From Mariannaea sp. PMI_226 (lineage: Eukaryota > Ascomycota > Sordariomycetes > Hypocreales > Nectriaceae), in the NCBI GenBank assembly GCA_024336345.1, contig JANFOG010000013.1:372001-436000 (forward strand): a DNA stretch of 64,000 nt, written 5' to 3'. Shown here in pieces: positions 19,815 through 56,535 of this stretch (position 1 is the first letter of the stretch; each line of letters opens with the position of its first letter). The notes under the pieces were generated by a model. The model was not told where the DNA came from, did not search any database, and worked only from the letters and a program-made list of their open reading frames with translations. The translations under genes and the position numbers were made by a program.

Positions 19815-20573
19815 AAGTGTCCAGGTTGTACCGAATTACCTTGTTTCCTGACGGCGAAAGGGTCAAGATTGTACACATTGTTTGTATTCTGCTGTTTTGG
19901 AGGCTTGTTTGCCAGGCGTTGTGTGTATTTTATTTGCTATGTACGGATGATATGAATGGGAATGATGGGATTATCGAGTGTTGATGATTAACTAGTTTGA
20001 TAATGACGTTTGATTAAAAGTTCAAGTCGGTCCTCCTCTTCTTGCCTGATGTATATGTGTTGGGAGGCAGGAATACTGTCACGCCCGCAATAACTTGTAA
20101 TCGGGGGCTATTAGATTGCTAGGTCGCATCGCGATTCTGTTGTTTCAAAGTTGAGCAAAGGAGTTGCGTTTAGACCCAAGAGCTTCGAAGAAATTCATAA
20201 ATGACGGCAATGAAGATACAAGATGTTTGAAGAATCATTACAAGCAGAATATACGCGATTTTGCGTCGTCTCAATAACTGTTTGTATTGATAAGTTATCA
20301 CTACTTGCGCTGTCGGATGTAGCGAGGACCGTCGCTTAATCTTCGGCTATTACTCAAGGCGATTGATACTGGAATAAGGTAGGTACCACTAATTAACTAC
20401 AGACTACCAACTTCTCCTAATGCTTGGACACCCAATGAACTCATCTCTTGGTTATTAAACAACCATAACTTGCTATATTCAATACGGGAGGAAACAAAGC
20501 TTGCTATGTAGGCAGGAAAACCACAACACCTTTCTTCAGCGCAACAGGATTTCTCATCAGCGCGCCACAAAGG
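19815..20573. other. Intergenic interval
   Basis: The 3' region of the tricalbin gene and the upstream region of the zinc-finger gene, with a GGTAGGTACC near 20380. No gene recognised. Confidence 0.45.
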
Positions 20574-26326: not shown

Positions 26327-27997
26327 CTACTTAGAATGGCCAACTTTGTGAAAGTGCAAAGGTGGTAGCCCAACCTGCATGGCCCAAGCAACACTGACCA
26401 CTGCGCCAGACTCTTCTTCACGTTCAAAGTCCAGCACGAATTGATCCCACTGGAACCAATCAATAAATTCCCGCAATATCAGCTCCTCGCGAGAGGCCGG
26501 CAAGAATCCTAGCTTGTTCCCAGCGAAGTATCTCAGATCATGATGCTGCGAAGCAACGTCGTTGACAATCATCCGTAGAACTCCGCTATCATCCTGCTTG
26601 ATGTCCAACGTCATCTTCAGCCCTGGATTTTCGAACCTGCCCACATAATCCCCCAGATCGACAGCAGGCGACCCCTCTTTCTTCTCCGCTTCCTGCCGGT
26701 AGAATTCAAACTCCGTCACCAGCCGATCATACCGTTCATACTCCACCTTGGCCCTATCTCGCGACGCCTCTGCAAAGTCAACTTGCGGCTGAAGATCGAA
26801 CATGGCCTGAGTGATTGCTTGCGCCGACCAATCAGTTCCATCGCCCAGCCCGTATGAGTTACCCAGCACAACTATGGCTGACTCTGTCTCGGGGAAAATG
26901 TATATTGCTGTGAGATATCCTGATTGGCCACCATTGTGATACAGAATCAGGCGTGGCTGCGAAGCCTGGCCGATGACGTGTTCCCGCTGGGGGCCGTTGA
27001 GGGAAATCATACCCAGCTCTGTGGATGGAATCGTGGCACGGGCAAAGCCAAGGCCGTAGGTATTTTCTCCAATAGAGGATTTGGTGATATTCGTCTTGTG
27101 GGACACGATCGTAGAGACTTGCTTCAGTGGTGAACTGGACTCATTGTGCATGGCATCCAGAAGAGCCTTAGCCCATTTCATCATGTCTGACACACAAGAC
27201 CAGACACCTCCGGCGGATCCCATGAGGGTGTCATCGGCAGCGACGTCAACTGGCTTTTGCTGGTGCAGAGAGTAGTCATCAAAAACAACATGAGGTTCTG
27301 CACAATTTTGATCGGGTAGGGCAGCGCGATTTGTTCGTGTCCTGCGCATGTCAAGTGGCTCAAGGATCCTCTCTTTCAAAAATTCATACCATGGACGGCC
27401 TGCTTGCTTTTCGATGAGTTTTCCTGCGACGGCGAACATGTAGTTATTGTAGTGATAGCCACTTCGAAGATCATGGATTGGAGGAAGGTGGCTGACAATG
27501 TCCAGTAGGTCCTTGATGTCGGCAACGTAATCGCACTCGACACCTAACCAGGTGAGATCTAGATGTGCCAGCCCGGTATTATGCGAAAGTGCATCCTGGA
27601 CTGTAGCCCTCTCTCCAATGACGGGGTCGACATGGTTTCTGAAGGGGATGTATGTCTTCAATGGTTCAGTCCAGCTCAACTTTCCCTCTTCAACAAGGAT
27701 ACCACAACAACATGCCGTGAACCCCTTTGAGAGAGAGCACAAAAGGTACATGGTATTGGAGTCGACAGGCTCTTGTGATTTTATATCACGCACACCACTA
27801 CTCCGGGTATAAATGACCTCACCATAGTGAAGAACCCCAATGTTGATTGAAGCCGTTCGCGTGTTGTCCTGGATTTGGTCCAAGATGGGAGATAAAGCGT
27901 CAATCCTAATGAAAGGTCAATTATCTTGAAAATGTGAACTCCTTTCATTAAGTGCTTACCTCGAACGCACCGCTTCAATGGATAAGTCCACAGCCAT
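26327..27997 (-). CDS. S12 beta-lactamase-fold serine hydrolase, copy 1
   Basis: Member of the beta-lactamase/DD-peptidase fold (MEROPS S12-like) found in fungal secondary metabolism as esterases, amidases or acyl transferases. Exon 1 is 27997-27960, the intron 27959-27906 (GTAAGC to TAG, phase 2 inside an Arg codon), exon 2 27905-26327; 538 residues. The nucleophile motif SLSK is at residues 70-73, a YNN motif lies in HYNNYMFAVAG, and the third motif HNG is in YHNGGQSGY, so the catalytic set looks intact. A C-terminal beta-rich domain begins near YVGRFENPG. No signal peptide is seen. It is divergent from the CmcJ-like gene A with a 654-bp shared promoter. Its substrate is unknown. Confidence 0.85.
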
Positions 27998-28651
27998 GTT
28001 GGACCTATTCAACTGTTGATATTTGCTGATGATTGATGAATTGGGACCACGATATTGAAGGCTGGGGACGAAGAGAAACACAATGCGATCGAAAGATGGC
28101 TAGTTGCAAGGGGACTGAAGAAGGACAGGATCAACCATGCACTCTGACGTGGCCAAGTCAGGATTTAATTCGGGTCACACAAACTTGGCTGCACGTTGAC
28201 AGCTAGCTTTCTTACGCAGAGCCGCTAGGGTAACATATTCTTCCTTATGGTACGGTAGCAAAATTACCAGGGCAAGGCACCTTAGGCAGGGTAGTTGCAT
28301 CAAAATAAGGGCACTGCTTTATGTAGCCCATTGCAACGAAGGGTCATTCCATGAAGAGTGGTACCCAAGCCAAGCCAAGCCATTGCCACCCCAGAAGCCG
28401 CGTTCGGATGCATGCGCACATCGAATATGCTATGAATCCACGTGCACCTTGGTAAAGGGAGAGGGAGAAGTGACAAGATGATGATGCGAAAGCCATGTTG
28501 GCCACACCCTTGATGGTCTCTCGACTACGGTTAAAAAAAAAGGGGACTAGACGACTGGTTATTAAAAGGGAAGAAGAGGACATCTATTAGTGCAAACCCT
28601 TCTTTCTTCACGAACTTGGGTTGGATGACAAACTTAGTCCTCCTCTTTACC
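27998..28651. promoter_or_regulatory. Shared promoter of S12 copy 1 and CmcJ-like A
   Basis: A 654-bp gap between two divergent start codons. It contains a (CCAAG)3 run at 28364-28379 and an A-run near 28533-28540. A bidirectional role is inferred from gene orientation only. Confidence 0.4.
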
Positions 28652-29685
28652 ATGGCATCTCCTCAGAGCGTAGAGGCTAATATAGCCTACATGAAGCCAG
28701 ACGATGATCTCTTTCGCAGAGAAAAGCCCTATGTTTCACTTGTTCCTTTTCTCAGCAGCAACGCTCAATTCACCAATACATGCATTGAGGAACATCTAAT
28801 GAAGATTGAAAACGTTCGCGGGAGAGAGTCTGAGTTCAATCTCGATAAGAATGGATTCGCTTACGTCTCATATACATCCAAGGAGCGGCCAACTCATGAT
28901 ATCAAGAGCCCAGACCACCCATATATGCACGAGATGGCTAAGTTTCTGAAAGGGTACTTGGGAGCGAAAGAGGTGACTGTATACGATGGAAGTGTGAGTT
29001 TCATTCAGGAGCCGATCAACCTCTATCCATGAACCTGGCGCTAATGGTGGCTAGACTCGGAGAATTGGTGACCCCAATTTTCTGCAAGCGTCATTGTACG
29101 CTCATGTTGGTTTGTATATGCCTCCATCGGTTGACAGCGAGCTCTGAGTGCTAAACGGGCGCGCAAGATCATACCATAGTCAATTGTCGGTGGAGAGTCG
29201 AGCAACTTATGGCAGAGAAGAAGAGGGAGATGCCAAGGCGTTGGCAGCTCGTCAAGTAAGATCGCAATTTCATGATTCCACTTGGGGTGCATACTGACTC
29301 TATCACTGAAGCATATGGGCCCCAATCAAAGGGCCCATCCAAGGTTCCCCGTTAGCTGTGTGTGATTACCAATCTGTCGACAGAGAGGACCTCGTTGCGG
29401 TTGACTCTGTCTTCCCACATCACGTCATGGAGGTCTATCACGTGAAGCATAACCCATCCCATCGATGGTACTATATGGAAGAACAAGATGTGGACGATAT
29501 CCTAATCTTCAAAACATGGGATAGTGAGGAAGAGAAGGAAAGCTGTAGGCTGAGTACTGTCTCGCTACGCATTTTATAATATACTGATAAGATGACTAGG
29601 CTGTGTTCACACGGCTATCATGCCGAACCCGGATGACAAGGTAATGCGGGAGAGTATTGAAATACGACTCATTGTGGAATACTAG
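28652..29685 (+). CDS. CmcJ/NvfI-family Fe(II)/2-oxoglutarate oxidoreductase, copy A
   Basis: Predicted non-heme iron oxygenase of the family containing CmcJ (cephamycin 7-alpha-methoxylation) and NvfI. Exons 28652-28993, 29055-29109, 29168-29255, 29312-29544 and 29600-29685; introns 55-61 nt with phases 0, 1, 2, 1; 267 residues. The spliced frame gives DIRG-like VRGRESEFNLDKNGF, the iron ligands HVD (H131, D133), NIWAPIKGP, SPLAVCDYQSV and EVYHVKHNPSHRWYY, then the distal His in VHTAIM (H243) and the 2OG-type Arg in SIEIR (R262). Every intron is required, because each exon alone ends in a frame break. The first ATG in good context is 28652; an in-frame ATG at 28625 would add nine residues. 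The PWxxW gene A lies 206 bp downstream, convergent. Confidence 0.84.
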
Positions 29686-29891
29686 TAGGCAGACTTTCAA
29701 TACATTAACTTTTACCGCTTCCCATCTGTAGACTATCGTAGGTTGTCTTGCAACTTAAATTTTAGTTTCGAGGAAGAAAAGTTGGCATCATCAATCTCTG
29801 TTCATTCAGCTACTTTTCATATTTGAAAGACTAAAAGACTAAAATGATAGATTTCCAACAAGAATGAGATTAAATCAGGGTATGGCTCAAC

Positions 29892-30170
29892 TCAAGATCC
29901 TGTCATATGACGAAAGTTGTCCACGCCAAATTCAACACTCCACCTGCACCATGGCTTGTCAAACGGCTCGCCCTCAGTTGGCTGCCATGCAACCCATGGG
30001 CGATTGTTTCCAGCTTCATGTTCCATGGCAAGAAACTTCTTCCAGGGCTGCTCACGGTCGTCAACCTCAGTTGGCTGAGGCTTCGATGTTTGCTTGTTTG
30101 GCGCTTCAGTACGATCGTTGTTAGATGCCCCCAACACCTGAGGCTTGAGATCGTTGCGGTTTGCAGACAT
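29892..30170 (-). CDS. Small Trp-rich protein with three PWxxW/F motifs, copy A
   Basis: Unrecognised 92-residue protein, single exon, starting MSANRNDLKPQVLG. The N-terminal 40 residues are polar and look disordered. The second half carries three spaced motifs: EQPWKKF, NRPWVAW and DKPWCRW, separated by 12-13 mostly acidic residues. The same three motifs, with the same leading residue (Q, R, K) and spacing, occur in the protein at 39.6-40.0 kb, so this short frame is conserved and very probably a real gene. No signal peptide, Cys framework or dibasic cleavage pattern is seen. It sits between a CmcJ-like oxygenase and an aldo-keto reductase. It could be a precursor peptide, a substrate carrier or a small structural protein. 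Confidence 0.7.
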   Translation of the reverse strand: MSANRNDLKPQVLGASNNDRTEAPNKQTSKPQPTEVDDREQPWKKFLAMEHEAGNNRPWVAWQPTEGEPFDKPWCRWSVEFGVDNFRHMTGS

Positions 30171-30954
30171 AATGCGTTTCTGCTGGTTGATTAGTTAAAT
30201 CAAGTTGACCTATGTCATCTTGGAGTGTGGATTTGGCAACCAACTTTTGTTTATAGACACTAGCTTGAGAGTGAAATGGACCCTTTGTGTGAGGACTGAT
30301 ACGAAGCGAGGAGGTTTGTTACGGAAAAGTAAGCCTTGAGAAGCGACTGTTGGGGGTGTGCTTATTATATTAAGCCTCCGCCTAATTGCATTTCTTGACA
30401 CGCGTCATGACAGTCGTTGGTAACCCCGTCAGCCAAAACAATCATATTCTGGACTATCCCCCCCCCTCTCCCCGAGATAGGAGAATTCGTACATACAGAC
30501 GAAAGTGCTGTTTCTTGACAAAGAGGTAGGTCGTGAAACCAAGTTGGTTGGCCTCTGCATCTAGCTGATCATACGAGTCTCCACACACGGAGCAACTCGT
30601 GACCGTAGTAAGTTACTCTGTGGACAGCGAATCGTATCTTAGGGCGGGCTATACTTGTGTTATCCAAGAGAGTCTTTTCCATTGAATGGTCCACCCCAGA
30701 ATTAATCCTGTAAGGTGTTGTCTATCCAGCACAATGCCACTGCCACCATGTTATAGCTTGTGTTACACTCTATAAAAGCGTGGACAATTTTTCCAAGATG
30801 AAGCGCACAAATAGTCCAACCGCACATTCGCAAAACTGCTTACGGCGTGATAAGATGTCAACAGCCCGTCTATATTCGCCTTGATACGTCAGTCACAGTT
30901 GCTCTGCTACCACACGGGTTTTGGATAGCTTGCTTCCAAGAAGAATGCCCCAAT
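30171..30954. promoter_or_regulatory. Shared promoter of PWxxW gene A and aldo-keto reductase A
   Basis: A 784-bp gap between divergent start codons, including a C-rich run near 30459-30475 and a TATA box at 30771-30777 for the reductase. Co-regulation is inferred from orientation. Confidence 0.4.
30771..30777 (+). promoter_or_regulatory. TATA box of aldo-keto reductase A
   Basis: TATAAAA about 180 bp upstream of the ATG at 30955. It matches the consensus but its role is inferred from position. Confidence 0.4.
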
Positions 30955-31878
30955 ATGACGCCTCTGAAGCCGATCCTGATCGTGGGCCAAACGCCCATCC
31001 CTCACTTCATCTACGGTACGGGATGGAAAGCGGAAAACACGACGGATAGTGTCTCGGCAGCCCTTCAAGCAGGATTCCGTGCCATTGACACAGCGCCACA
31101 GCCACAAAATTACGACGAGACGCTCGTTGGCAAAGCAATAACAAACTGGCTTGCCACATCGCCCATGGCGCCTGAATCTGAGAGACGTATCTTTCTACAG
31201 TCCAAGTTTACCAACCCATCCGGATACGGAGATTGGGTCAAACCCTTCGAAGACCAGGACCCGCCATCGATACAAGTGCAGAAAAGCCTCGACCAGAGCT
31301 TGACACGCCTGGGTCGTGGGGGCATGGGTCAGCTGCCCCTTGATGCCTTGCTACTACATTCCCCGCTTGCTACAATTGAAGAGACCATGGTTTATTGGCG
31401 GGCCATGGAGTCTCATGTACCTCACAGAGTCACGTATCTCGGTATTTGCAACGTCTCACTGCCTACCTTTACTCAGCTCTATGCATCCGCCACCATCAAA
31501 CCTGTCATTGTGCAGAATGATTTCCGTCCAGCACACGGGTTCGATGTGGAGCTGCTGCAATTCTGCCAGAAGCGGTCTGTCGTCTACCAAGCTTATGCGG
31601 TGTTGAAGGGTAACATGGCACTTTTGAAGTCACCACTTGTTGGGTGGCTGGCTCAAGAGAAGGGAATTACCGAGCCAGAGGCATTGTATTGTCTAGTATT
31701 GTCCTGCTGGGATGGTCAATTATGTATTCTTAACGGTACGAGATCTGAAGATGCAATGAAGAAGGATCTTGAACTTCTGAAAAAGGTTGGAAGATTGGAT
31801 AAGTATATTATTGATGGATTCTGGGAGATGATGGCGGCCACAGAGGATATTGACTGGTCGTCGGGCAAATCGGCCTGA
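30955..31878 (+). CDS. Aldo-keto reductase, copy A
   Basis: NAD(P)H-dependent carbonyl reductase of the aldo-keto reductase fold, 307 residues, single exon. The catalytic tetrad is visible as D45 (FRAIDTA), Y53 (QNYDE), K84 (LQSKFT) and H135 (ALLLHSP). The family strand-helix pattern continues (YLGICNVSLPTFTQLY; KPVIVQNDFRP; VYQAYAVLKGN), including the cofactor-binding region near LNGTRSEDAM. The start chosen is the ATG at 30955; the frame is open further upstream but without an in-frame ATG. The closest relative in this window is the copy at 43.3-44.2 kb, which differs throughout, so the duplication is old. Substrate unknown. Confidence 0.86.
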   Translation: MTPLKPILIVGQTPIPHFIYGTGWKAENTTDSVSAALQAGFRAIDTAPQPQNYDETLVGKAITNWLATSPMAPESERRIFLQSKFTNPSGYGDWVKPFEDQDPPSIQVQKSLDQSLTRLGRGGMGQLPLDALLLHSPLATIEETMVYWRAMESHVPHRVTYLGICNVSLPTFTQLYASATIKPVIVQNDFRPAHGFDVELLQFCQKRSVVYQAYAVLKGNMALLKSPLVGWLAQEKGITEPEALYCLVLSCWDGQLCILNGTRSEDAMKKDLELLKKVGRLDKYIIDGFWEMMAATEDIDWSSGKSA

Positions 31879-31922
31879 GTCTCTGTTTGGCTGCGATATG
31901 GAGCATAAATGACAGCAACTAG

Positions 31923-31943
31923 CTCTCTCTCTCTCTCTCTCTC
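31923..31943. repeat. (CT)n microsatellite
   Basis: Perfect CT dinucleotide run of about 21 bp just after the aldo-keto reductase A stop codon. Confidence 0.85.
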
Positions 31944-31984
31944 AGTGGCATTCGATTATGGCGACGAGTAATCTCTAGACTGAC

Positions 31985-32960
31985 TTAGGTTTGTGTCCAG
32001 CCAGCGCGACCCAAACACACGGTGCAAAGACCCGTCAGAGCGGTCACCAAGGGGATCAATTGTCCCGCTGATAAAACAAAATTGACGTTTTTAACCTGAT
32101 TCCACGCCAGAAACAGTTCAATCATGGCGGCGAACAATGAAAATGAAACAATTTGTGTCAACAGCAAAAACCACATCTTTCTTCCTCGCTGAACTGTTAT
32201 CCTAGGCGACGTACTAGTAGCCAGAAGCCAAGTTTTGATATCTAGACGATTGACCCATACTCCAAGGACCATATAGAATATTCGGACGGAGTTTACGACG
32301 AAGACGACGATCGACAAGCCTTGGCTTAGTTTGCGAAACCAACCATGAATAGAGGTGGAACTGAAGAAGAACACGCGCCAGTTGCAGGACGCAAGCATCT
32401 GTTGGGGGATGAAATCAAGATTTCCCGTCTTTAGCTGATCTGTTCACCCAAAGGTATGGTCATGGTTTTCTGAACACTTACAAGTATATTTTGGCCGCTA
32501 TACCAAAACCATACCCCGAGAATGCTGTAGGAGAGAAGTAATAGAGATCTTAGAAGCTCAGCGAGCTTTGTCGACCCAAAACCTCTCGACTTTTTCTCAA
32601 CCATCGTCTCCATCATGATGGCGAATCCTGCACCGACGCCGAAGACTGTCATCAGATACACTTCACCAGCGTTGGTAGTGTGGGCCGCAATTTTATAAAC
32701 TGTTGCAACCAGGAGTGAAAATTGGAAGATACAGTTCACCGCGAGAGAATCTATCTGAGTGCGTTGTACACCTTGATGTTACTCAAGAAACCTTTCTTTA
32801 CACAAGAGGCATCGGGTATCATAATTTTGGGTCTACTTACTGTCATATCCGGCGATCTGTGAAACGCAACGATGGTTGTGAGCCATGATATATAAGATCC
32901 AGTTCTGACGCCCAAGCCATAAAGGTCTGCATCACCATGAGATTGGCATTCTGGTGACAT
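31985..32960 (-). CDS. Multi-span membrane protein of unknown function
   Basis: Predicted fungal integral membrane protein. Exons in reading order: 32960-32841, 32754-32482, 32398-31985; introns 86 and 83 nt with phase 0; 268 residues. The N-terminus has the motif HGDADLYGLGVRTGSYISW, common at the start of a large family of uncharacterised fungal membrane proteins, and about six hydrophobic spans follow (FQFSLLVATVYKIAA, VYLMTVFGVGAGFAIMM, LLLLSYSILGVWFWY, LSIVVFVVNSVRIFYMVL, MWFLLLTQIVSFSLFAAM, LIPLVTALTGLCTVCL). A longer start at 33014 is possible in the same frame. No function can be assigned. It lies inside the duplicated cassette region but only one copy is seen. Confidence 0.7.
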
Positions 32961-33312
32961 AGCAAGTCTCCTCGTGAGGGCTGTAGTTCGGAAGTGAATG
33001 AAAGTTGATGCCATCGAATAAAACAGGGCCCTCAAGGGAAATGGAGAGCAAAGGATCAATCAGAATCAGAATATGCCAAATGGAGGCTCGCAAAGCGGAT
33101 TGGCTCGCTTAAAGGCATGGTGATATGAAAAGTCTTTCCTGGGGAAAATATGAGCACCAAGGGGAGTTCTCCAGTGAGACTGGCTTCGGGCCCAGTCCCT
33201 GCGTACTATTTCTCAGGAGTCAGGTAGCGAAATGCCATTCATCTTTCAGCCCAGCTGACAAGGATATACCCATTAACAAACCAGTCAGCTTCCTCTAAGG
33301 CGTGGACTGCAT
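32961..33312. other. Intergenic interval
   Basis: A 352-bp gap between the membrane protein gene and S12 copy 2, containing the membrane protein promoter. Nothing else recognised. Confidence 0.45.
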
Positions 33313-34935
33313 CTAACGAGACCCCTCCTCCAGTACGAAGATACCAGGCGCCTCAAGTTCAGCATCGTATTTCCACTGCAGCGACTTGGCACCACTCCTC
33401 TCAGCTCCGCAATCAAATCCTACCTCATACGAAGCCCATGGTCGCGTCTGGAATCGCCCCTGCTTTGCCGTCTCGTTATGAGGCGCGTTCCAGACCCATG
33501 AGTCGTCATGATAATGTCGCAACTTGTACGTCTCACTTTCCATGCTCTGAAATCTCATGTAAAGGCCTCCATCGTCGTCATGAACTGTGATGTCAATATG
33601 GAAGCTCTTAATATCGTTCCAGTACCGGCCGGTGTAAGCCTTAAGCTCCAGAGGTTTAGTATCTTTCTTGCGTCTTTCCTCCAGTGCAGCCTCAATCTTA
33701 GCAGCTAGCATCGTGCCGCTCTTTGCCGCTGTGGTGGCCAACGCCTCAAAATCAATACCTCGAGCGTCAGCCTCGGACAGCGTGTGGATTACAAGCTGAG
33801 AAATCCAATCACAGGGGTCACATATTCCCGTTGAATTTTGTAGCGCGATGACAGCCGTCTCTGTCTCGGGTAGCAAATACACGGCTGAAGTGGCTCCCTG
33901 CATGCTTCCGCCATGATACACCGCCACGCGGGATGGTGCGCCTTGGCCGACAAGTGGCATGGCCGGAACGAGATATTTGTTGTAGTTAAACGCACCAAGA
34001 GGTGCAGGTAGTTCTGCACGACCCCAACCAAGAGCGTAAGATTGCTCTCGAAGGGATATCATGGTGAGTTGGTTATGTGGTCGAAGGATCCGCAGAAGCT
34101 GTTTGAATGGTGATCCTGGTGTCGACGTAGCTTTGCGGGCAAATTGATCGTTTGCCGCGTGTATAAAATTGCGGTAAAATTTGGTAAGATCGTTTGTGCA
34201 ACTCCGCACACTCCCGGCTGGTCCCATCAAGGTTTTGTCGGAAATGGTTGGAATAGGTACTTCAGAAGGTGAGGCATCGTCAAGGGCGAAATACGCCTTA
34301 GCAGCATTGGTGTTATCCGGAATGTCTGAGGTAGACGTTCGAGACATTCCAAGTGGCTCAAACAGCTTCTCCTTGAGGTTTTCACCTAGACCCTTGCCCG
34401 ATAACTTCACGATGGCGCGACCAACCAACTCGTACCCAAAATTATTGTAGAGATAGTCGGTTCGAAAGTCTCGAACCGGAGGCTGCGATGTCCAGGTTCG
34501 AACACCCACAGACTGGGAAAGGAGAATGTTTCCGGCTCGTTGTAGCCAGAGGCCGTCAAGGCGAGCAATTCCAGACCGATGCGATAGGAGGTCCACGACG
34601 GTTATTTGAGAACCACGTCCATCCCACGTACCTTCAAGCTCAGGCAAGATGGATGCGATACGAGTGGTCCATTCAAGTTTCCCTTCTTCCACGAAAATTC
34701 CTACCAAAGCCGTAACCATGGCTTTGGTCAGGGACCCAATAAAGTAGGTGGTGTCTCCATCAGGGGCTTGCTGCGTGTTGACATCTCGAAAACCGAAGTG
34801 CTTAGAGTAGGCTACTTCCCCACGTATCAGAACTGAGAGCGAGAGCCCGGGGGCTCCGCCAACCTCACAAATGTGGGAAAATTGCGACTCTAGGGCCGTA
34901 ATGGCGGCCATGTTGGTATTGCGTTGGGTTTCCAT
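33313..34935 (-). CDS. S12 beta-lactamase-fold serine hydrolase, copy 2
   Basis: Paralogue of the genes at 26.3 and 40.4 kb, 540 residues, single exon from the ATG at 34935 (a second ATG eight codons later is possible). The nucleophile motif SLTK is at 68-71, YNN lies in DYLYNNFGYELVG, and the third motif is HGG in VYHGGSMQG. A C-terminal beta-rich domain starts near YTGRYWNDIKSF. Unlike copies 1 and 3 it lacks the phase-2 intron near the N-terminus, so the intron was lost or the first exon differs. The frame is open upstream of 34935 through a hydrophobic stretch, but no ATG lies in that part. It is divergent from the pseudokinase gene with a 557-bp gap. Confidence 0.85.
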   Translation of the reverse strand: METQRNTNMAAITALESQFSHICEVGGAPGLSLSVLIRGEVAYSKHFGFRDVNTQQAPDGDTTYFIGSLTKAMVTALVGIFVEEGKLEWTTRIASILPELEGTWDGRGSQITVVDLLSHRSGIARLDGLWLQRAGNILLSQSVGVRTWTSQPPVRDFRTDYLYNNFGYELVGRAIVKLSGKGLGENLKEKLFEPLGMSRTSTSDIPDNTNAAKAYFALDDASPSEVPIPTISDKTLMGPAGSVRSCTNDLTKFYRNFIHAANDQFARKATSTPGSPFKQLLRILRPHNQLTMISLREQSYALGWGRAELPAPLGAFNYNKYLVPAMPLVGQGAPSRVAVYHGGSMQGATSAVYLLPETETAVIALQNSTGICDPCDWISQLVIHTLSEADARGIDFEALATTAAKSGTMLAAKIEAALEERRKKDTKPLELKAYTGRYWNDIKSFHIDITVHDDDGGLYMRFQSMESETYKLRHYHDDSWVWNAPHNETAKQGRFQTRPWASYEVGFDCGAERSGAKSLQWKYDAELEAPGIFVLEEGSR

Positions 34936-35492
34936 TGCGAGGGATAGTAGTACGATGAATACGTGTGTGAGGAGAAATGAAAGACTGTTGAATTCATCAG
35001 CTTGGAACACGGTTGGGTGATGAATAATATGTGCCAACCTGAAGAGTGTCGGTGAAGGTACGGTACTTCAGGCCCAACACGTACGTCGAAGACCCCTCTT
35101 GATTATGTCCCTAGGCACTGCATGCAGCCAGCCACAGCGAATGTGCAATAACTCTTGTGAATGTAACTTTGAGGTTCCAACCCAGTCAGCACCGGTGAAC
35201 AACTGAACACACCAAGCACGGTAAATGCCGTACCGCGTTCCAGATCCACATGCCCGGCCAGTAAAGAGATGGGTGATACTTGACGGCGGCAACTGGAAAG
35301 CTTTGTATCACTCAACTGGAGTCACGAGGTCAAATTTTAATGGTGTGTACTACGTGTAATGGGAGATAAGTCTCAGAGATACAATACCCTAGAAAGTAAG
35401 CTGAAAAAAAGAGTGGATTTGAAGTTCAGCGCAGTACTTCAACCTGTCGACTGCCCTATAATTTTACGGACTCACCGCCACTTCTCTATAAG
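34936..35492. promoter_or_regulatory. Shared promoter of S12 copy 2 and pseudokinase gene
   Basis: A 557-bp gap between divergent start codons. A TATAAG lies only a few bases before the pseudokinase ATG, too close for a usual TATA box. No other signal recognised. Confidence 0.35.
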
Positions 35493-36938
35493 ATGTTGGA
35501 CAGCTTATACAGCCCCGAGTTGCCATTAACATGGGACATAGAGGGTATTGCCGACGATGGATCGAACGGTCTCTTGCTCGTTCCACAAAGCGGAAACAAA
35601 CGGACTTATCCTCCCTATCATCTTATATGTGTTATAGATAATGATCCTTCCTCTCAAGCCTTATGGAAGCTGTCGACAAGCTGTGGCCAAAGCGGCCAAA
35701 GGCAAGAGTACCAGAACGTTCTGGACAGCATCACCGCACGACTTGATGCATGGAGTAGCTCAAAGAAACAACGGCCGTTGCTCAGATGCATCACTATAGG
35801 GTCGCGAATCCATATTCCCCACATGCCGACTGAAAACGAGAACGACGCCATATGGATTGCCCCTAATATTGCGTTGAAAGAACGATACCTGACCATCGAT
35901 CGTTTGATGCAGCTGTGGTCACCTCTGTCACTGAACTTCCCGCCAAGCCTGGATTTTGAGGAATTACAGACTGTGAAACGACTCCATGATACAGTATCGA
36001 TTGTTCTTCTACCAAGCGGAGAGAAGGCTATTTTCAAAGGGGTAGTCGCTGTCGCATCTCGCATGTACCACGAGCTTCGGGAACTCCTACGAATACCCTG
36101 TCATCCAAATGTAATGGCAAAGCCCACATTCCTAGCAACGAGGACCGCTGGAAGCAGCCAAGATCCCATTTGCGGGTTTATTCTAGACTACCACCCCGGT
36201 GGCACGCTACTTGACAAAATACTTCGCTCGTCAGAACAAAACCCTATCACTCTCAAAGACAAGATGAAGTGGATTTGGCAAATAATCATAGCCCTAGAGC
36301 ACATTCATAGGGCCGGGAGCTTCTATCCAGAATTGAGGCCTGAAAACATAGTATTTTCCAAGAACGGTGATATCGTTCTGGTGGACTTCGAACAATTTGG
36401 GTCTCCTTCCCGATGGACTCATCCACTTGTTGGCAAGGCCGTGGACCTGGAAAACAACCTTGGATGGGAAAACAGCCCGATAAATCCTGTTTGCATGCCA
36501 AATAGTATTTTCTATTCAAACCCGCCTGCCGGATACCTAGAATCGTTTTCCAATGCTTCCGAATTGCTGCGGCAGACGTTTGAGAACTACAGTTTAGCCA
36601 AAGTCATGTGGTGCATCTTTGAAGAACAGACCAACATGACCACAAGACTCGATGGAGGGGATACTCAACTGGGAAGCAACAACGCATCATTCTTGTTCCC
36701 ACAATTTAGTAAAACTCCGGACAGAATACGATATTGGATCTGGCTCTGTACACGGTCGAGCCCAGAATGGGGAGGCATGGCCTGTAAGTGCCATTTGAAG
36801 CAGCCAGACGTTTGTGAGCTAGTTCGCGCGGGACTTCAGACGAGTGGACTTGCTCATCTAAGTATCAAGGATTCCCAAGACTATTTTGAGACTGCAATGA
36901 AAGATGAGCTCCACGGTGAAGAAATGGAGTTTCTTTAG
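35493..36938 (+). CDS. Protein kinase-like protein with degenerate catalytic motifs (pseudokinase)
   Basis: 481 residues, single exon. The N-terminal ~160 residues have no recognised domain. The remainder follows the kinase fold: a possible VAIK-type Lys in AIFK (K182), a helix with HELRELL, LDYHPGGTLLDKIL, and a catalytic loop region IHRAGSFYPELRPENIVF. There HRD is replaced by Y278-P279-E280, while the PEN part is kept (residues 283-285). DFG is replaced by DFE (298-300, VDFEQFG). Loss of the catalytic Asp suggests little or no phosphotransfer, so a scaffold or sensor role is more likely. Such proteins are common in Pezizomycotina accessory regions. It sits between S12 copy 2 and CmcJ-like B. 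Confidence 0.75.
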   Translation: MLDSLYSPELPLTWDIEGIADDGSNGLLLVPQSGNKRTYPPYHLICVIDNDPSSQALWKLSTSCGQSGQRQEYQNVLDSITARLDAWSSSKKQRPLLRCITIGSRIHIPHMPTENENDAIWIAPNIALKERYLTIDRLMQLWSPLSLNFPPSLDFEELQTVKRLHDTVSIVLLPSGEKAIFKGVVAVASRMYHELRELLRIPCHPNVMAKPTFLATRTAGSSQDPICGFILDYHPGGTLLDKILRSSEQNPITLKDKMKWIWQIIIALEHIHRAGSFYPELRPENIVFSKNGDIVLVDFEQFGSPSRWTHPLVGKAVDLENNLGWENSPINPVCMPNSIFYSNPPAGYLESFSNASELLRQTFENYSLAKVMWCIFEEQTNMTTRLDGGDTQLGSNNASFLFPQFSKTPDRIRYWIWLCTRSSPEWGGMACKCHLKQPDVCELVRAGLQTSGLAHLSIKDSQDYFETAMKDELHGEEMEFL

Positions 36939-37425
36939 CGTTGTTTACCCAACAATCTGTCTATCTGAACTCCATGTGTCTATTGTCATGTCACACGCTC
37001 ACTAAGAGCATTACTTTGCAATTGTAGCCATTCTAGAAGGGATCATATTTGGACAATTGCCGAGGCCGGTAGGACATCGCCCCCCTACCATGAGCTAATC
37101 ATTACGGCTCAGAACATTCAATCTACTTTTTCTTCTCTCATTTCTTATTTTGTGGATACAGATGTGCGTGATCTCATATGATAGCTTGTATTAATTCGGA
37201 TTTCTTTTTTAGACCTTAAACAACTCCGAAACTCTGTATTCGATAATGATTTCTCTATAGTTCTAAATTTATGCAGCATTACCACTTAACTAGTACGTAC
37301 CTAGGTTGGCTGACATGCTCCTCACGGGCTTTGACTATAAACACCTGTTACTCCCATTCCCTTTCTTTCTCTCTTCCTCACTTTTTCTTCGTTCTTCTCC
37401 ATCTTTCTTCTATATTGTTACAATC
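36939..37425. other. Upstream region of CmcJ-like B
   Basis: A 487-bp gap with a TATA box at 37336-37341 followed by a strongly pyrimidine-rich leader (about 37345-37410). An in-frame ATG at 37314 lies before the TATA box and is not taken as the start. Confidence 0.45.
37336..37341 (+). promoter_or_regulatory. TATA box of CmcJ-like B
   Basis: TATAAA 90 bp before the ATG at 37426, with a CT-rich tract between them. A typical arrangement for filamentous fungi; positional inference. Confidence 0.45.
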
Positions 37426-38623
37426 ATGGCATCTCTTCTTACTTCATTTCTATCGTGGCTTCGAGGAGACACTCAGACCACTATAGATTTATCCAATCAA
37501 GTTCCCTTCCTGAAGCGCCAAGCAAATCTGGAGTTCCTCGATGACTCCCACCCAAAATACAAGACCGAGAAGCCTTACTACTCCAATGTCCCATTTACAA
37601 AGAAAGATGCCCCCAATACCAACGTCATCTCTAGAACGCAACGTTTAACCCTCTGTGATATCAGAGGCCATGAGGACCTGTTCGACCTTGATATTCAAGG
37701 ATTTGAACTCGTAAAGCGTCAGTGGGACTTTGACCAATGGCAAGATGGCCAAAAGGTTGTTCAAGAAGTATATCCTCAAGTCTCCGAGCTGCTCAAGAAG
37801 CGGCTCGGAGAAGATGTGAGGGTAGTTGTCTTTGACCATACGGTCTGGTCCCCTATTTCTCAATAAACTAATAACCTTCCTGTAAAGACGAACCCACAAA
37901 TTAACACTTAAATTTCTAGCTCCGTAGAAGCAAAGCTGCTAGTGGAGGCGTGGAGACTTCCAAAGAGCAATCTGATGACAATTTCGCCCCTCCTAGCCGA
38001 GTGGCTCACGTTGGTAGGTCGATGGCCACAATATTTTATCATTTTACATATAAACCTTACAGTCGAGATAGATCAAACATACAAGGCGACTGTCGAGCAG
38101 ATCAAACTCGATTTCAAAAAGGAAGCTGATACGATCCTCCAAGGCCGCTTTCGCATTGTCAAGTTCGTTCGCCTTTGGTTCACTTCTCCAACTCCCTTGA
38201 ACTAGGAGCTAATAGGATCATGCTCATAGTATCTGGCATCCCATACAGGGTCCTGTGAAGCAACACCCATTCGTGCTCTGCGACTACAGATCATGCAAAA
38301 CCGATTACAGTCCTTGTGACCTGGTGTACCCACACACTGTCACTGAGATTATGGTGTTCAAAAACTCGCCCTCCCAGAATTGGTACTTTATTGACCAGCA
38401 AACCGAAGACGAGGCCTGGGTCTTCAAAATTGTGGACTCGCAGAGCCTCATTGACCCCGACGTGGCCGAATGTGAGCACGTCACTAAAGTGAATTACTCC
38501 CGCTAATATGAGCTGATTATGACGTTTTTAGTTTCGGCACACACATCCTTCTTTGACGAGAATGAGGCTCTTGCGGGTTGCAAGCGGGAGAGCGTGGAGT
38601 TTCGTGCTTACATCTTCGGCTGA
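37426..38623 (+). CDS. CmcJ/NvfI-family Fe(II)/2-oxoglutarate oxidoreductase, copy B
   Basis: Paralogue of copy A with a longer N-terminus. Exons 37426-37842, 37920-38013, 38072-38162, 38230-38471 and 38532-38623; introns 58-77 nt with phases 0, 1, 2, 1, identical to copy A; 311 residues. Family marks: DIRGHEDLFDLDIQGFE, VVFDHT-LRRSK, iron ligands HVD (H169, D171), IVNIWHPIQGP, FVLCDYRSC, FKNSPSQNWYFI, distal His in FRHTSF (H285) and Arg in SVEFR (R306). One donor is the weaker GTCTGG but gives the only in-phase continuation. The chosen start has the same leading residues (MAS) as copy A. Exon 2 carries a longer Ser/Gly-rich insert before the HVD motif than copy A. Confidence 0.84.
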
Positions 38624-39557
38624 GCCCATTATCATCGACCACTCACGGACAAACGGCTGGGCGGATAAGTCAAGGTATTACTTGTTGCACTGAAAATTTG
38701 AGGGGCTCCCAAAGTGGGGAAATATGCTTTTAATTGGATAATGTATGTCGACTTGTTGCACATTTCGCTATGGACTTGAGCCATCTCATCATCCCACTCA
38801 TCTAAAGAGTGAAAGTTATTTTTGCCACGTCTCTCAATTTGGCTCAAGGAAATCCCTGTCGCATTTGGAAATGTAACCTACCGAGCCACATTGATTCTGA
38901 AATCCCTGCAGACGAAAAACAGGGTGGGCGGCGTCAATGGACAGCTTCCATCAAACAGAACGGCTAGAAACCCGTCTTACGGATAACTGAGTGTGGTATG
39001 GGCTACTGGAAGCCAATGGCCATTGCAGCTCTACTGCATGCGTATGAGTCAAATGACCACCTTAATGTAAACCTGAAGAGAAGAAGGGGAAAGATATTCA
39101 GCCGGCTAGTATTCGCCAACTTGTGTGTCTGACGTGTTGTAATCGAATGTAAACGTGGTTCTACGGCACATGTCCGAAATTCACCCTCTTGGATTACCTC
39201 TTTTCCCCACTCTCCTTACCTATTCTTTGTCGCTGTGGAGGTGTATCCGAGAACCGATAGCCTAGAGTATGGATTCTTTGAAGGTAAACATATCATTAAG
39301 AGCTCCAACACCCGAACAGAGCCGCAAACAACCAACAAATGAAGTGCCTCATTTCACTAGGGTCTCCTAAATACTAGGATATTATTGAGCTGAAGAAAAT
39401 CTTTCGGAAACTGATAAAGAGTGGCAAGTCAGCTTTCCGTGTGATCACTTTGTGGCAACATTTCCAAGCTCTTCTTTAATCTTTACTAACAAGAATATAT
39501 TTTATGGGATAAAGTTGTGATGAGCATAGTCTCATTTCAAAGCTCAAAGTATTCCCA
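38624..39557. other. Interval between CmcJ-like B and PWxxW gene B
   Basis: A 934-bp gap without a recognisable gene. It holds the 3' region of the oxygenase and presumably the promoter of the small Trp-rich protein. Confidence 0.45.
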
Positions 39558-40031
39558 ATGTCTTCCATGTATCTGCTCTATGTTAGTTTTGTGATCGTCG
39601 CACTCAGGTCTGCACCCTCCCTCCCTTTTGAGTTTCTCCAGTTCCTAATCTATAGCTAACTCATCATCTATAAACGCAGCACTTTAGTTATTAGTGTCGC
39701 TCGCAAGGATCCTGCAAGTGCTCGCGAGACTGGAATAATCACGATCCCTGACAAGCCTCAAGTTGAAGTGCCCGAGATTACGGCTGGCCCCGAAAAGAAC
39801 CAGCCCTGGAGGGAGTGGCTCCAGGCCGAGCTGGCGACCAAGGGTGACCCTGACACGACCCGACCGTGGCTTAACTGGAAGCCTAATATGGAGGACCCGA
39901 GTGACAAGCCATGGCTCTACTGGAACCAGAGGAAGATGCGCAATGGTGGCGCTGGGGCTTACGAAGATGCCACTGGGCCTACAACAGAAATGATGGGCAC
40001 TTATCCCGTGGTTAATCACGCTAGAGTTTAA
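39558..40031 (+). CDS. Small Trp-rich protein with three PWxxW/F motifs, copy B
   Basis: Paralogue of the protein at 29.9-30.2 kb. The conserved part is in one exon ending at 40031 and carries NQPWREW, TRPWLNW and DKPWLYW, separated by 14 and 11 residues, with shared flanks (PWxxWL..E; P....P.DKPW). The 5' end needs splicing: the best fit is an 11-nt exon 39558-39568 (MSS plus two bases), an intron 39569-39694 (GTATCT to TAG) and an exon from 39695, giving 115 residues; acceptors at 39679 or a donor near 39608 are also in phase. The N-terminus is therefore uncertain, but MS- agrees with copy A. The C-terminal tail is Gly/Thr-rich. Unknown function. Confidence 0.62.
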
Positions 40032-40363
40032 GAGGCTTGCCAACAACAGTTCGTGGGCTTCGTATAAAGTCAGCTTTAGTTGGTGGAGAGAGAGGAGCTG
40101 CGGACTCATGATGCACATTTTTTTGGTGGAAGATATTCTTGTTATTTGAATTACCAATATTGCTTTACGTTGAAAATAGCCTATTTTAGGATGGGAATGG
40201 CAATGAAATTCTTACTTGCATGACTTCTTTAGGATTAAGGATATAATATTGATAACCAAGCCTACTGCTTGATACGAAATTACTCGACAAGTGACATTCG
40301 ATTGGCTGTGTGTTGTCGAGTTACGACTATAAGATCGGATTCCGACCTTTGAAATATGAACCT
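40032..40363. other. Intergenic interval between convergent genes
   Basis: A 332-bp 3'-3' gap between the PWxxW gene B and S12 copy 3. Nothing recognised. Confidence 0.45.
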
Positions 40364-42295
40364 CTACTGACGGAGGAATTCCTGAGGCTCAATGCGGCTG
40401 TCACCATCAAGTGACCACCTAATTTTGACAAATTTGTCGCTCTCCAAGTGATCAAACTCGATGATCCAAGATTTCCAGAATAGGAGATACATGGAGTACC
40501 CATTCTCGATGCAATCATCTCGGGTTTGTTGCAGGAAGGTCCACGAGTTTGCGTGGTAGTGGTACATATCAAACACTTGCTCCTCAATGCCATTGATGCG
40601 GAGACGCAGAGGGTTCAAAGAATCTCCTGTGAGCGTGATACTGAGAGTCATGGCAAGACCTTCGTTACAGTAGTTTCCAGCGTATTTCGCCAAGGGCTCC
40701 GGAGATGTTCCGGCACGGCGATGCTTCTTCCACTCTGTGACAACAGTGTCCCAGCGACCTTTGGCGTTGGAGACAACGTTCTTGGCCACCTCATCAAAGT
40801 CCACCACAGGCTTCAGATTAAACAGGGTCTGCGTCAACAGTTGGGCGATGATGTTGGTGGGGTCTCCGTTGATTTGGAACGAGTTGGTAAGAACAACAAT
40901 GGAGCAGTCATCATCTGGAAAGGTCCAGTACGCAGAAAGGAAGCCACCCAGTTCCCCAGTGTGACCGATGACCAGCCGATCTCCAGAGTCCTTACCGATG
41001 GAGTAGTGTCGGTCATTGACGTCAGGGTTTGTAACAACGTTCATTTCCGTAGTTGGGAGGTGCAAGTTGAAGAGTCCAAGCGCGTACTGCTGGTTGCTGT
41101 CACCGGAGAGGGGGAAGTATGGTGTTTGCGCAGTGGCCATGGAGATGGCAAGATCACTTTCACAGTGTACTCGCCGCCTATGATGGTAGATGTTCTTCAC
41201 CCACTTTGCCAAACCAGAGAGAAAATGAGTTATAACCGTGAGACAGCCTGGCTCTGGCTCTGCCGTGACTAGCTGTGCCTGGTTCCTATAGTGGTGTCTA
41301 GAAGGGTTCGCTTGTCTCCAGGATTGCATGAGCGCCTTGGACCAGAGCAACAAATCATCCACACATGATCGGACGGACCCTGAACTGTCGAATGCAATTC
41401 CATTATTCAAACGAGGAAGACCTACGGACTTGGACGGTTTGTCGTCAAAAACCAAATACGGCAAGGCGTGGTTGCCATCAGTTGGAAGGTCCGTATATGT
41501 TCTCTTCATGCCAATTTTATCAAAAATTTCTTTCTGAACAAACTGGCCATAAGAAGTCTTCGACTCCTGCGCAATCAGGGTCCCCGCAAGGGCATACATC
41601 CAATTACTGTACATCCACTCAGTCTTGAAGTTGGCCTCGCGTGGGAGGTGATTGACAACCTGAACAATGTCCTCGTGCTTGACGAAAACATGACCGTCCT
41701 TGCCCAAGACTTCAAATGGCATAGTGGAAAGACCAGCGCAATGAGAAAGCATGTCCCGGATGGTCATCTGCTCGGCCACTACCGGGTTTCCCTTGGTTTT
41801 CAGGGAGGGAATCTTGGACGAGACGGGGGCATCCAGGTCGACGACGCCGCGCTGGGCGAGGAGACTCAGTGCGGTTCCAGTGAATCCCTTGGTGCATGAT
41901 CCGATAGAATACACCGTTTGTGAATTGGGGACAAGGCCAATTTCCTCGTTTGCTAGCCCGAATCCCTTGACCCAAAGCTTCTCTCCCTTGTAGTTGACAC
42001 CAATTGACAGCGAGGGAGCCTTGAATATTTTTCTGATTTCTTCAATGAGACCGGCAATACCCTCAAGCCTAGGCCAACCAAAAAAAAAACCAAACCGTTA
42101 GCTCAATCCATTCATTATTGGTTAATAAGTGCAAGGGTGGTGTCCGACTGTTCTGTCCGCTCTAAGAACGTAGCATCCCAACATACAGGTGGAGATGTCA
42201 TCAAATAAGATAATGCAAACCAACCTTTTCAAAGCAGCAACACGGCCATTGTCGCCGTGGCGAAACCCATTATTGAAATTGCCGTACTTTTCCAT
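40364..42295 (-). CDS. S12 beta-lactamase-fold serine hydrolase, copy 3
   Basis: Third S12 paralogue, 591 residues. Exon 1 is 42295-42225, the intron 42224-42069 (156 nt, GTTGGT to TAG, phase 2 within an Arg codon as in copy 1), exon 2 42068-40364. The nucleophile motif SCTK is at 81-84, YSN lies in EWMYSNWMYALAG, and HTG in VIGHTGELGG. It has an extra basic/aromatic insert of about 45 residues (around KWVKNIYHHRRRVH) relative to copies 1 and 2; no intron with good borders removes it. The C-terminal beta domain starts near YAGNYCNEGLAMTL. It is divergent from aldo-keto reductase B with a 999-bp shared upstream region. Confidence 0.85.
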
Positions 42296-42692
42296 AATAC
42301 ATTGGGTTGAACTGTTCAGTCTTTTTTTCTTGTTGCAGGACCCTAATTTGTGTAGATGAGAATGTCGGGCGCTAGCGCTCTTACAAATGTGGAGGCAGGG
42401 CGATGGGGAGGGACAGGCCGGACGGGCAAGAAAAGTCCAGAGAAAAAAAGGCAGTGCATGTGGGCGCCCAGGAGTCCCCGAGTTTCGACATCTTTGAGGC
42501 TCTGCGGCTCTGCGGCTCTGTGAAGGGGAGAGGTTCGGACTCCCTGCGGAGCCTGCTTGCTTGCTTGCCTGGCATGGGTTACGTGGGATTGCTGCGTAGC
42601 CGACCGAGCAGTGAGACAGGCATGCATGACAAGATGGGTACCGTACCTCTGGGCAATCAAAGCAACAAAGGGATCATGAGAGGCCCAACCCT

Positions 42693-42731
42693 CCAACCAA
42701 CCACCAACCACCAACCACCAACCACCACCTC
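42693..42731. repeat. CCAACCA-type tandem repeat
   Basis: About five degenerate 7-bp units (CCAACCA/CCACCAA) in the shared upstream region of S12 copy 3 and aldo-keto reductase B. Confidence 0.75.
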
Positions 42732-43130
42732 CCAACTCCCAACAGGGTGGTACAACATAAGTTTTTAGTGCTTTGAGCCGGTGGTATTGAAAGTGGGCCA
42801 CTAAACGGGAACTCTTATAGTGCCCGTCGGGAGCTTGACGTGCTTCATTTGCTCGGTATGGGCCAACTTGACCGAACAGTTGACGTCAGGGGCCCTGTTG
42901 GTTGCATACACACCCCACGCTAAACTGCGTAATAACTGTGTCAAAGGGCAGCATCTTTTGGTTGTTGGTGATTCATATCAAAGTATTCTCCCATATCCCG
43001 TGCGCAGCATCAAGGATTTCAAGCCACGTAGCCACTGAGGTGCGAGGCACCTTATTAGTTGCATCGTCTTGCGTATTTCGTATCCTGCCGAGACAACACA
43101 AACTTTTTGTTTGGCCGGTGCCGGGGGAGA

Positions 43131-43154
43131 GGGGGGGGGGGGGGGGGGGGGGGG
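43131..43154 (+). repeat. Poly-G homopolymer (24 bp)
   Basis: Uninterrupted run of 24 G, preceded by GGGGGAGA. Capable of G-quadruplex formation; its exact length is also a likely sequencing uncertainty. Confidence 0.8.
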
Positions 43155-43294
43155 AATGGAGAGTATGCGGTTATTAACCCCGCCTATAGGACAGACATAC
43201 AGACAGCCTGCTCTCTCATATGCCACCTCGGGTTTCTTTTTCCCGTCCTTGGATCGCGTGTTCTGACGGCCTCAAAGTGTGCAGAGTCTCAGCC

Positions 43295-44206
43295 ATGGAC
43301 CGTGCCAATTTCCACCCCATTCAGCCCTCCCTCACCCCCGGCGGCTCTGCCATCCCTCCCTTGCTTTACGGAACCGCTGAAAAGACGGATCCCTTGCTGA
43401 TCTTCTCAGCCCTCAAGACTGGCTATCGAGGACTAGACTGCGCCTGCCAGCCTCACTTCTACTACGAAGACGTAGTTGGCCAAGCAATCGCATTGGCTCT
43501 GTCGCCCGTGTCTTCAGGGGGCCTGGGCCTGCGCCGAAGCGACATGTTCATCCAGACAAAATTCACCACGCCGGCCGGTCACACTCACAGGCCTGACTTG
43601 GCGCCCTACGCTCACGAGGATCCGCCAGCGGCCAAGGTTCGAAAGAGCCTGAAAATGAGCCTGGCCAAGTTGGGGGTCGATTACGTGGATGCCCTGCTTC
43701 TCCACGGGCCAATGCCAACCTTAGTCCAGACACTGGATATTTGGCTTGCAATGGAATCGTGCATTGGTGACAGAGTGCGTAACATAGGCGTGTCCAATTT
43801 TTCCCTGGAACAACTTATGCACATTTATCGTCATGCGACCATCAAGCCAGCCATTGTGCAAAATAGGTTCTGGCCTCAGAATCACTTTGATTCTGACGTC
43901 AGGGCCTTTTGCGCCGACAATAGAATGGTGTACCAAGCCTTCTGGATCCTCACGGGGAATCCACAGCTCCTCGACACTAACATTGTTGGTTGGTTAGCTG
44001 ACAAAACAGGGACATCAAGGGAGGACGCACTGTACACTCTTGTTTTATCGCTTGGCAAAGACGGGTCTGGCATTTCTGTTTTGAACGGTACGAAAAATTT
44101 GCAGAGGATGCAAGGCAGTCTTGAAGCTATACACAAGGTAGGGGTAGTGCCAGATATGGTCAAGCGAGGGTTTTTGGAACAATTGAATTTGGAAAAGAGC
44201 AGTTGA
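43295..44206 (+). CDS. Aldo-keto reductase, copy B
   Basis: Paralogue of the reductase at 31 kb, 303 residues, single exon from the ATG in CCATGG context at 43295. The tetrad is D48 (YRGLDCA), Y56 (HFYYED), K89 (IQTKFT) and H137 (ALLLHGP). Other aligned segments include NIGVSNFSLEQLMHIY, KPAIVQNRFWP and VYQAFWILTGNPQLL, and GISVLNGTKNLQRM near the cofactor end, each matching copy A with changes. It follows the fold without truncation. Together with S12 copy 3 it forms the right end of the second cassette. Its stop codon is 177 bp from the convergent NLR-like gene 2. Confidence 0.86.
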   Translation: MDRANFHPIQPSLTPGGSAIPPLLYGTAEKTDPLLIFSALKTGYRGLDCACQPHFYYEDVVGQAIALALSPVSSGGLGLRRSDMFIQTKFTTPAGHTHRPDLAPYAHEDPPAAKVRKSLKMSLAKLGVDYVDALLLHGPMPTLVQTLDIWLAMESCIGDRVRNIGVSNFSLEQLMHIYRHATIKPAIVQNRFWPQNHFDSDVRAFCADNRMVYQAFWILTGNPQLLDTNIVGWLADKTGTSREDALYTLVLSLGKDGSGISVLNGTKNLQRMQGSLEAIHKVGVVPDMVKRGFLEQLNLEKSS

Positions 44207-56457: not shown

Positions 56458-56535
56458 GAGTTATGTTAATGTGAAGGTGGGAGGGGTGTCGCGGTGGAAT
56501 TAAAAAGTTGACGCGGGTCGCGACTAGTGCGCGTT

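Follow-up and report, generated by a model that had tools for sequence, protein, structure and literature searches.

Two diverged gene sets in Mariannaea sp. PMI_226, each with a small PWxxW protein, as candidate versions of an old fungal small-molecule module

We examined an 18 kb segment of the genome of Mariannaea sp. PMI_226 (a genus placed in Nectriaceae, Hypocreales) in which four gene families occur in two adjacent sets: serine hydrolases of family S12, CmcJ/NvfI non-haem iron oxygenases, aldo-keto reductases (AKRs) and a small protein with repeated PWxxW motifs (PW). The segment lies in a window of 64,000 bases (bases 372001-436000 of contig C5, 1.2 Mb, in an assembly of 42.2 Mb). We put at even chances the explanation that this segment contains a conserved fungal small-molecule module in two ancient versions, A and B, served by a dedicated non-catalytic PW partner. 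As its enzymes, such a module would have a CmcJ/NvfI oxygenase, an AKR and at least one S12 hydrolase or acyl-transferase. The genes of the segment, in window coordinates, are:

26327..27997, minus strand: S12-1, serine hydrolase with beta-lactamase/esterase fold, on the set A side (PF00144 E 3.2e-52; SLSK and YNN)
28652..29685, plus strand: CmcJ-A, CmcJ/NvfI non-haem iron oxygenase, five exons, 266 residues in the model used (NF041278, 197 bits)
29892..30170, minus strand: PW-A, 92-residue PW-motif protein with no hydrophobic N-terminus, assigned from the family alignment
30955..31878, plus strand: AKR-A, aldo-keto reductase, 307 residues (PF00248 E 2.8e-14; AKR-A clade)
31985..33059, minus strand: multi-exon gene for a membrane protein, three hydrophobic open frames
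33313..34935, minus strand: S12-2, serine hydrolase (PF00144 E 1.7e-48; PF11954 E 1.3e-13), start placed by eye
35493..36938, plus strand: kinase-like protein (PF00069 E 2.6e-9), YPELRPENI and DFE in translation
37426..38625, plus strand: CmcJ-B, CmcJ/NvfI non-haem iron oxygenase, five exons, 311 residues (NF041278, 183 bits)
39558..40032, plus strand: PW-B, 133-residue PW-motif protein with hydrophobic N-terminus, exons 39558-39607 and 39680-40032
40364..42295, minus strand: S12-3, serine hydrolase, exons 40364-42068 and 42225-42295 (PF00144 E 7.5e-40)
43220..44206, plus strand: AKR-B, aldo-keto reductase, 328 residues, or 303 from 43295 (PF00248 E 5.1e-21; AKR-B clade)

The original prediction had placed nine named genes of the four families in these 18 kb. 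All nine are there with their key motifs, their order and strands are unchanged on re-examination, and the profile scores exceed the cut-offs except for PW, which matches no profile. The S12-1, S12-2 and S12-3 products score 178, 166 and 138 bits against PF00144 (cut-off 27), and the SxxK nucleophile motif is present in all three translations (SLSK, SLTK and SCTK, respectively). S12-1 probably begins with a short 5′ exon at 27960-27997, read by eye, and S12-3 probably with the 5′ exon at 42225-42295, one of many splice options listed; the open frame of S12-2 extends to 35037, and its start at 34935 was picked by eye.

The spliced five-exon products of the two CmcJ genes (the last intron of CmcJ-A has three possible donors) both pass the NF041278 cut-off of 80 bits. 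Aligned with the two other copies in the genome, both contain HVD, a distal HT and RES(I/V)E(I/F)R, in which we take HVD and the distal His to be metal ligands and the last motif to supply the functional arginine. In these respects they resemble the known CmcJ/NvfI enzymes; the closest solved chains to CmcJ-B are 7eus (E 4e-21) and, more distantly, NvfI (7de2, E 1e-15). AKR-A and AKR-B score 53.3 and 75.4 bits against PF00248 (cut-off 24).

The PW-B gene is present as predicted, but its extent had to be enlarged by the first exon, 39558-39607, which encodes the hydrophobic N-terminus. The resulting 133-residue model is identical to the deposited Mariannaea sp. PMI_226 protein BGZ63DRAFT_494438. 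That PW belongs to no known family was borne out: with E values up to 0.1 admitted, neither copy matches any profile of Pfam or NCBIfam. Among seven PW members scanned with Pfam none matched above the cut-off (P0016 has one weak match below it), and the two scanned with NCBIfam gave no match.

The families are concentrated in the segment. Both PW genes of the genome (searched with PW-B as query), two of its four CmcJ/NvfI genes and two of its three close AKRs (those with E below 1e-40; another six match weakly) lie within the 18 kb. With genes placed uniformly at random, the joint chance of this PW/CmcJ/AKR clustering is, as a rough figure, about 1e-14. The S12 family is larger, with 20 matched pieces, or about 15 loci by count, three of which are in the segment. 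To look for a third cassette, we searched about 10 kb on each side of six other enzyme copies by tblastn with the seven enzymes, PW being covered by the PW-B genome search alone. None was seen, nor any mixed neighbourhood of set enzymes in these flanks; the remaining CmcJ, AKR and S12 copies lie apart, the nearest CmcJ-AKR pair being about 84 kb apart on contig C21.

The two sets are strongly diverged. Identity between A and B copies is 30% for CmcJ and 41% for AKR, S12-1 and S12-2 are 33% identical, and all paralogue pairs in the window fall between 23 and 41%. AKR-A and AKR-B belong to separate clades in a tree of the first 70 matches of a search with the AKR-A/AKR-B alignment, with clade supports of 100/97 (nine rows, including the long-branched P0090) and 100/99 (29 rows); the tree was rooted by midpoint only, which bears on whether A and B are sisters. 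These identities and the separate clades rule out a recent tandem duplication. Of the duplicated cassette originally proposed, the two sets side by side stand, but not as products of a recent duplication. Sets A and B are of old origin, with relatives in different fungi, and Mariannaea has both next to each other.

S12-3 stands apart within this picture: it is 28% identical to S12-1 and 23% to S12-2, and far closer to a lone gene at C9:181490-183019 (77% identical), beside which the tblastn search of the flanks with the seven enzymes found no other set member. A 41-residue in-frame stretch of S12-3 (about 41168-41290) is absent from this paralogue, and no canonical intron fits it by eye.

Linkage of some of the families in other fungi supports a conserved module. 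Two protein searches returned 22 PW proteins, making 23 members with PW-A; those with an assigned organism are Ascomycota throughout. The family alignment shows two subfamilies. A-type members end in FGVDNxRxM (PW-A, Fusarium lateritium ACHAP8_010387, F. graminearum and three more), and B-type members in EMMGTYP (PW-B, F. lateritium ACHAPT_005304, F. nematophilum, F. vanettenii, Neocosmospora mangrovei and others). Intermediate forms are P0011, P0012, P0013, P0016 and the B-like Arthrobotrys entomopaga P0014. AKR relatives were taken as the best 120 of 256 matches from the AKR-A/AKR-B alignment search, with the one longest contig per 90% cluster, and sharing of a contig by PW and AKR was read from equal size of the longest contigs among the matches listed.

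On this basis PW and AKR occur together on at least six contigs outside Mariannaea, with the subfamilies matched. A-type PW accompanies AKR-A in ACHAP8_010387/010388 (156,780 bases) and in a further pair on a 19,984-base contig. PW-B and AKR-B pair in ACHAPT_005304/005302 (771,754 bases), ACJ41O_008456/008454 (6,343,404 bases) and F. vanettenii (318,960 bases), and on the Arthrobotrys contig (819,297 bases) a B-like PW accompanies an AKR placed basally in the AKR-B clade. Among the matches listed, no contig mixes A-type with B-type. Locus tags of PW and AKR are in order in three pairs, 1, 2 and 2 apart, and in both readable B pairs a single gene stands between PW-B and AKR-B, the position held by S12-3 in Mariannaea. 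F. graminearum and F. falciforme also have a PW and an AKR of fitting type, listed on different contigs. Across eight linked pairs, of which the window supplies two, distances among the PW proteins correlate with those among the AKRs (r 0.98), a value reached by 9 of 40,320 permutations, and the correlation arises mostly through the A/B split.

One record ties in the oxygenase. The first 56 residues of P0008 (Neocosmospora mangrovei Neosp_013022) match the C-terminal part of CmcJ-B (42/56), after which the protein continues as PW-B from its second exon. P0008 is most simply explained as two same-strand neighbours merged in one gene model, which would put CmcJ-B directly upstream of PW-B; this single fused model indicates that the two genes probably adjoin in N. 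mangrovei as they do in Mariannaea. The proposal that the four families work as a set is thus supported for some of them, by the PW-AKR pairs and by one CmcJ-B/PW-B case, though not in the form of a recently duplicated cassette.

The recurrence of the same pairs in other fungi, together with the rarity of the families in the genome, also argues against the view that unrelated genes have come together by chance in a fast-evolving stretch bounded by NB-ARC/TPR genes. Such genes do stand on both sides, and a Tc1-like transposase and a further TPR/DUF7779 frame lie to the right, yet we regard this account as very improbable. It is largely refuted for PW, AKR and CmcJ-B, but may yet apply to some of the S12 genes and to the genes for the membrane protein and the kinase-like protein.

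The PW proteins themselves share one fixed spacing. Three PWxxW motifs are present in 16/23 members and two in 7/23. The third motif always follows the second at a distance of exactly 15 residues (23/23; P0015 lacks the first motif), while the distance between the first two ranges from 15 to 25 residues. All six A-type members have F or L at the end of the first motif, and each motif has its own flanking residues in the family alignment. Mean conservation of the motif region, N-terminal part and C-terminal part is 0.87, 0.66 and 0.84 in the B-type and 0.78, 0.45 and 0.88 in the A-type. In AlphaFold predictions of the single chains of PW-A and PW-B, which are of poor quality, helices start at motifs one and three. 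Pattern matches in bacterial and archaeal genomes (118) and in viral contigs (11) yielded no PW relative upheld by tblastn, and a comparison with solved structures gave weak matches only, at E 0.029 or worse.

The N-termini differ between members. In P0001-P0004, all B-type, the first 19 residues are hydrophobic (Kyte-Doolittle 2.5 to 2.7) and RK, RR or GRR comes next, and Arthrobotrys P0014 has a signal-like N-terminus; the other B-type records (P0005, P0006, P0008, P0009 and P0010) are partial or have other annotated N-termini. No hydrophobic N-terminus was found in the A-type members examined, PW-A included. By the positive-inside rule, the basic residues after this 19-mer suggest that the PW part of these proteins would face the cytosol.

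Dikaritins and KEX2-cut repeats are fungal peptides made from secreted precursors. PW could itself be a ribosomal peptide precursor: CmcJ would oxidise its tryptophan motifs, AKR would reduce them, and S12 would release or cyclise them. Like dikaritin-type precursors, PW is small, repeats its motif two or three times, adjoins an oxygenase gene (in the case of PW-B) and can start with a hydrophobic stretch (four B-type members) or a signal-like one (P0014); no KS, Terpene_syn_C_2 or DMATS match lies on C5, and a KR site occurs in 10/23 members. KR is missing in the other 13, among them both Mariannaea proteins, the A-type members examined have no hydrophobic N-terminus, and none of the 10 UstYa matches in the genome is on C5. 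A signal followed by repeated cores between KR sites, as in dikaritin-type precursors, was therefore not found at the Mariannaea locus. A precursor would also be expected to have a variable core or interchangeable repeats, whereas in PW conservation is concentrated in the motif region and the C-terminus, each motif keeps its own flanks and the second-to-third spacing is fixed. We therefore regard a precursor role as unlikely; these same features are rather those expected if PW acquires its fold on a partner. The precursor screen of Mariannaea elegans described in the available part of one report found no precursors of known peptides (PMC9258550).

PW might alternatively link the module to clathrin-coated membranes, a reading to which we give little credence. 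The Mariannaea clathrin heavy chain retains the letters at the positions we take to form the W-box pocket, F27, Q152, I154 and I170, of which I170 was aligned and the others were read against the animal sequence. PWxxW, found two or three times in 23/23 members, is given as the consensus of clathrin W-box ligands such as amphiphysin and SNX9 in the accessible text of two papers (PMC5182127, PMC7480105), and a hydrophobic N-terminus followed by basic residues, as in the B-type, would suit a membrane location. Unlike a free linear motif, PW is conserved beyond PWxxW, in its motif-specific flanks, its fixed 15-residue step and its C-terminus. In addition, the five-residue match is short, and the first A-type motif departs from the consensus with its final F or L. 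The literature found on PWxxW consists of endocytosis and virus papers; none on the present gene set was found by topic or by PW and AKR locus tags in a search that did not cover most subscription papers.

A further point of the original prediction, that the window holds no polyketide synthase (PKS), nonribosomal peptide synthetase (NRPS), terpene synthase or prenyltransferase, agrees with the Pfam scan of 30 window sequences (smaller frames were not scanned), in which no backbone enzyme appeared. On the rest of the contig, none of the genome's 46 ketosynthase (KS), 4 Terpene_syn_C_2 or 2 Trp_DMAT matches lies on C5 (the last two being the terpene synthase and prenyltransferase families covered genome-wide), and no AMP-binding match on C5 was found among 14 scored of 108 candidates. 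NvfI acts in a meroterpenoid cluster that has a backbone enzyme, and in this the Mariannaea locus differs from it.

The lack of KS, Terpene_syn_C_2, DMATS and UstYa matches on C5 and the presence of several hydrolases would also fit a catabolic or detoxification cluster, comparable to the benzoxazolinone clusters FDB1 and FDB2 of Fusarium, in which S12 opens a plant or microbial lactone, lactam or ester and AKR and the oxygenase finish the conversion. CmcJ/NvfI enzymes are known from biosynthesis, which weighs against this scheme, and it gives PW no role. The metallo-beta-lactamase, amidases, transporter and transcription factor of the FDB clusters were not found inside the set, and the 30 Pfam-scanned sequences of the window include no metallo-beta-lactamase or amidase gene. 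Two MFS/sugar transporter genes and an FAD-binding frame are present further left in the window. In the part of the published account available to us, FDB1 and FDB2 are paralogous clusters, by an ancient duplication in the authors' view, each with its own distribution (PMC4726666); like the present sets they combine hydrolase and AKR, the AKR being described for FDB2 in similarly partial text (PMC10512309). They are the nearest precedent we met for two old paralogous clusters, although their enzymes differ: the FDB clusters are unlinked and rely on a metallo-beta-lactamase, and no PW, CmcJ or S12 is seen in the portion of the account available (PMC4726666). Taken together, we consider detoxification a doubtful possibility.

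Under the module explanation, the enzymes would act in turn on a small molecule, by oxygenation, reduction, and hydrolysis or acyl transfer. The substrate would be drawn from elsewhere, whether primary metabolism, another locus or the surroundings, rather than made by a PKS, NRPS or terpene synthase of the cluster itself. PW would be a non-catalytic partner that binds one enzyme, or ties the enzymes together, through its fixed-length tryptophan unit, and the B form would additionally be held at a membrane by its N-terminal helix. That a fungal iron oxygenase can require a non-catalytic accessory protein has a precedent in TlxI/TlxJ, as far as the available text of that study goes; there TlxI is itself an oxygenase relative, whereas PW is an unrelated small protein (PMC12141560).

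Several observations weigh against the module explanation. The original prediction had asked whether PW homologues lie mostly outside such neighbourhoods: on contigs longer than 10 kb, 7/15 PW proteins match a listed AKR contig (one being the window's own P0001), and 8/15 have no AKR partner among the matches listed (P0005, P0006, P0008, P0009, P0010, P0012, P0016 and P0019), the strongest counter-cases being P0005, P0006 and P0012 on contigs of 27 to 49 kb. The other seven PW matches are on contigs under 6 kb. For the F. vanettenii (87271, 105652) and Arthrobotrys (0200685, 0204468) pairs, the contig alone is common to PW and AKR; their gene numbers are too far apart for contigs of that size and are therefore not positional. 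S12 genes may belong to the module outside Mariannaea, yet their linkage to the set was seen in Mariannaea only. No transporter or regulator clearly belongs to the set. Both AlphaFold models of PW are poor (pLDDT 68 and 59, pTM 0.37 and 0.25). Finally, the 9-mer TACCGTACC is found in the promoter of each S12 gene (at 28249, 35057 and 42639; 3 copies against 0.03 expected) and a single time in 163 kb of background sequence, but as a shared promoter motif it fails the control: 152 of 300 random six-piece background sets hold some 9-mer in at least three pieces. It is a lead only.

Two genes within the segment stand apart from the four families. The membrane protein, as a crude exon join, has no Pfam or NCBIfam match. 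The kinase-like gene at 35493-36938 adjoins S12-2; the model that its product matches best in NCBIfam, though weakly, is one for an anti-phage defence kinase (31 bits against a cut-off of 460, E 7e-8). The canonical kinase motifs HRDLKPEN and DFG are replaced by YPELRPENI and DFE, and the protein is probably inactive.

Outside the segment, NLR-like NB-ARC/DUF7779/TPR genes flank the module at 22246-24743 and 44702-46493, both on the minus strand. To the left of the first lies a 406-residue open frame without Pfam match (20469-21686), and the FAD-binding monooxygenase-like frame and two MFS/sugar transporter genes occupy 4970-12429, with no sign of membership in the module. To the right, a Tc1/mariner-like transposase in two open frames (DDE_3 and HTH_Tnp_Tc3_2) occupies 55311-56460, and after it come, at 56897-60096, a TPR/DUF7779 frame and one of the phosphorylase superfamily (PF01048).

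We tentatively propose that PW may represent a new accessory class, an adaptor, sometimes membrane-anchored, whose PW-15-PW unit would dock the CmcJ-type oxygenase, and possibly the reductase and hydrolases, or tie the module to clathrin-coated membranes, within a complete backbone-free pathway that exists in two co-diverged versions. If this adaptor reading is true, the segment would encode a complete small-molecule pathway with no classical backbone enzyme. Programs that detect fungal gene clusters use backbone enzymes as their signal and would probably miss such a module. The pairing of PW with matched reductase subfamilies in Fusarium, Mariannaea and Arthrobotrys would then be a handle for finding pathways of this kind, and the module offers a direct test of small proteins as dedicated partners, or as substrates, of fungal iron oxygenases.

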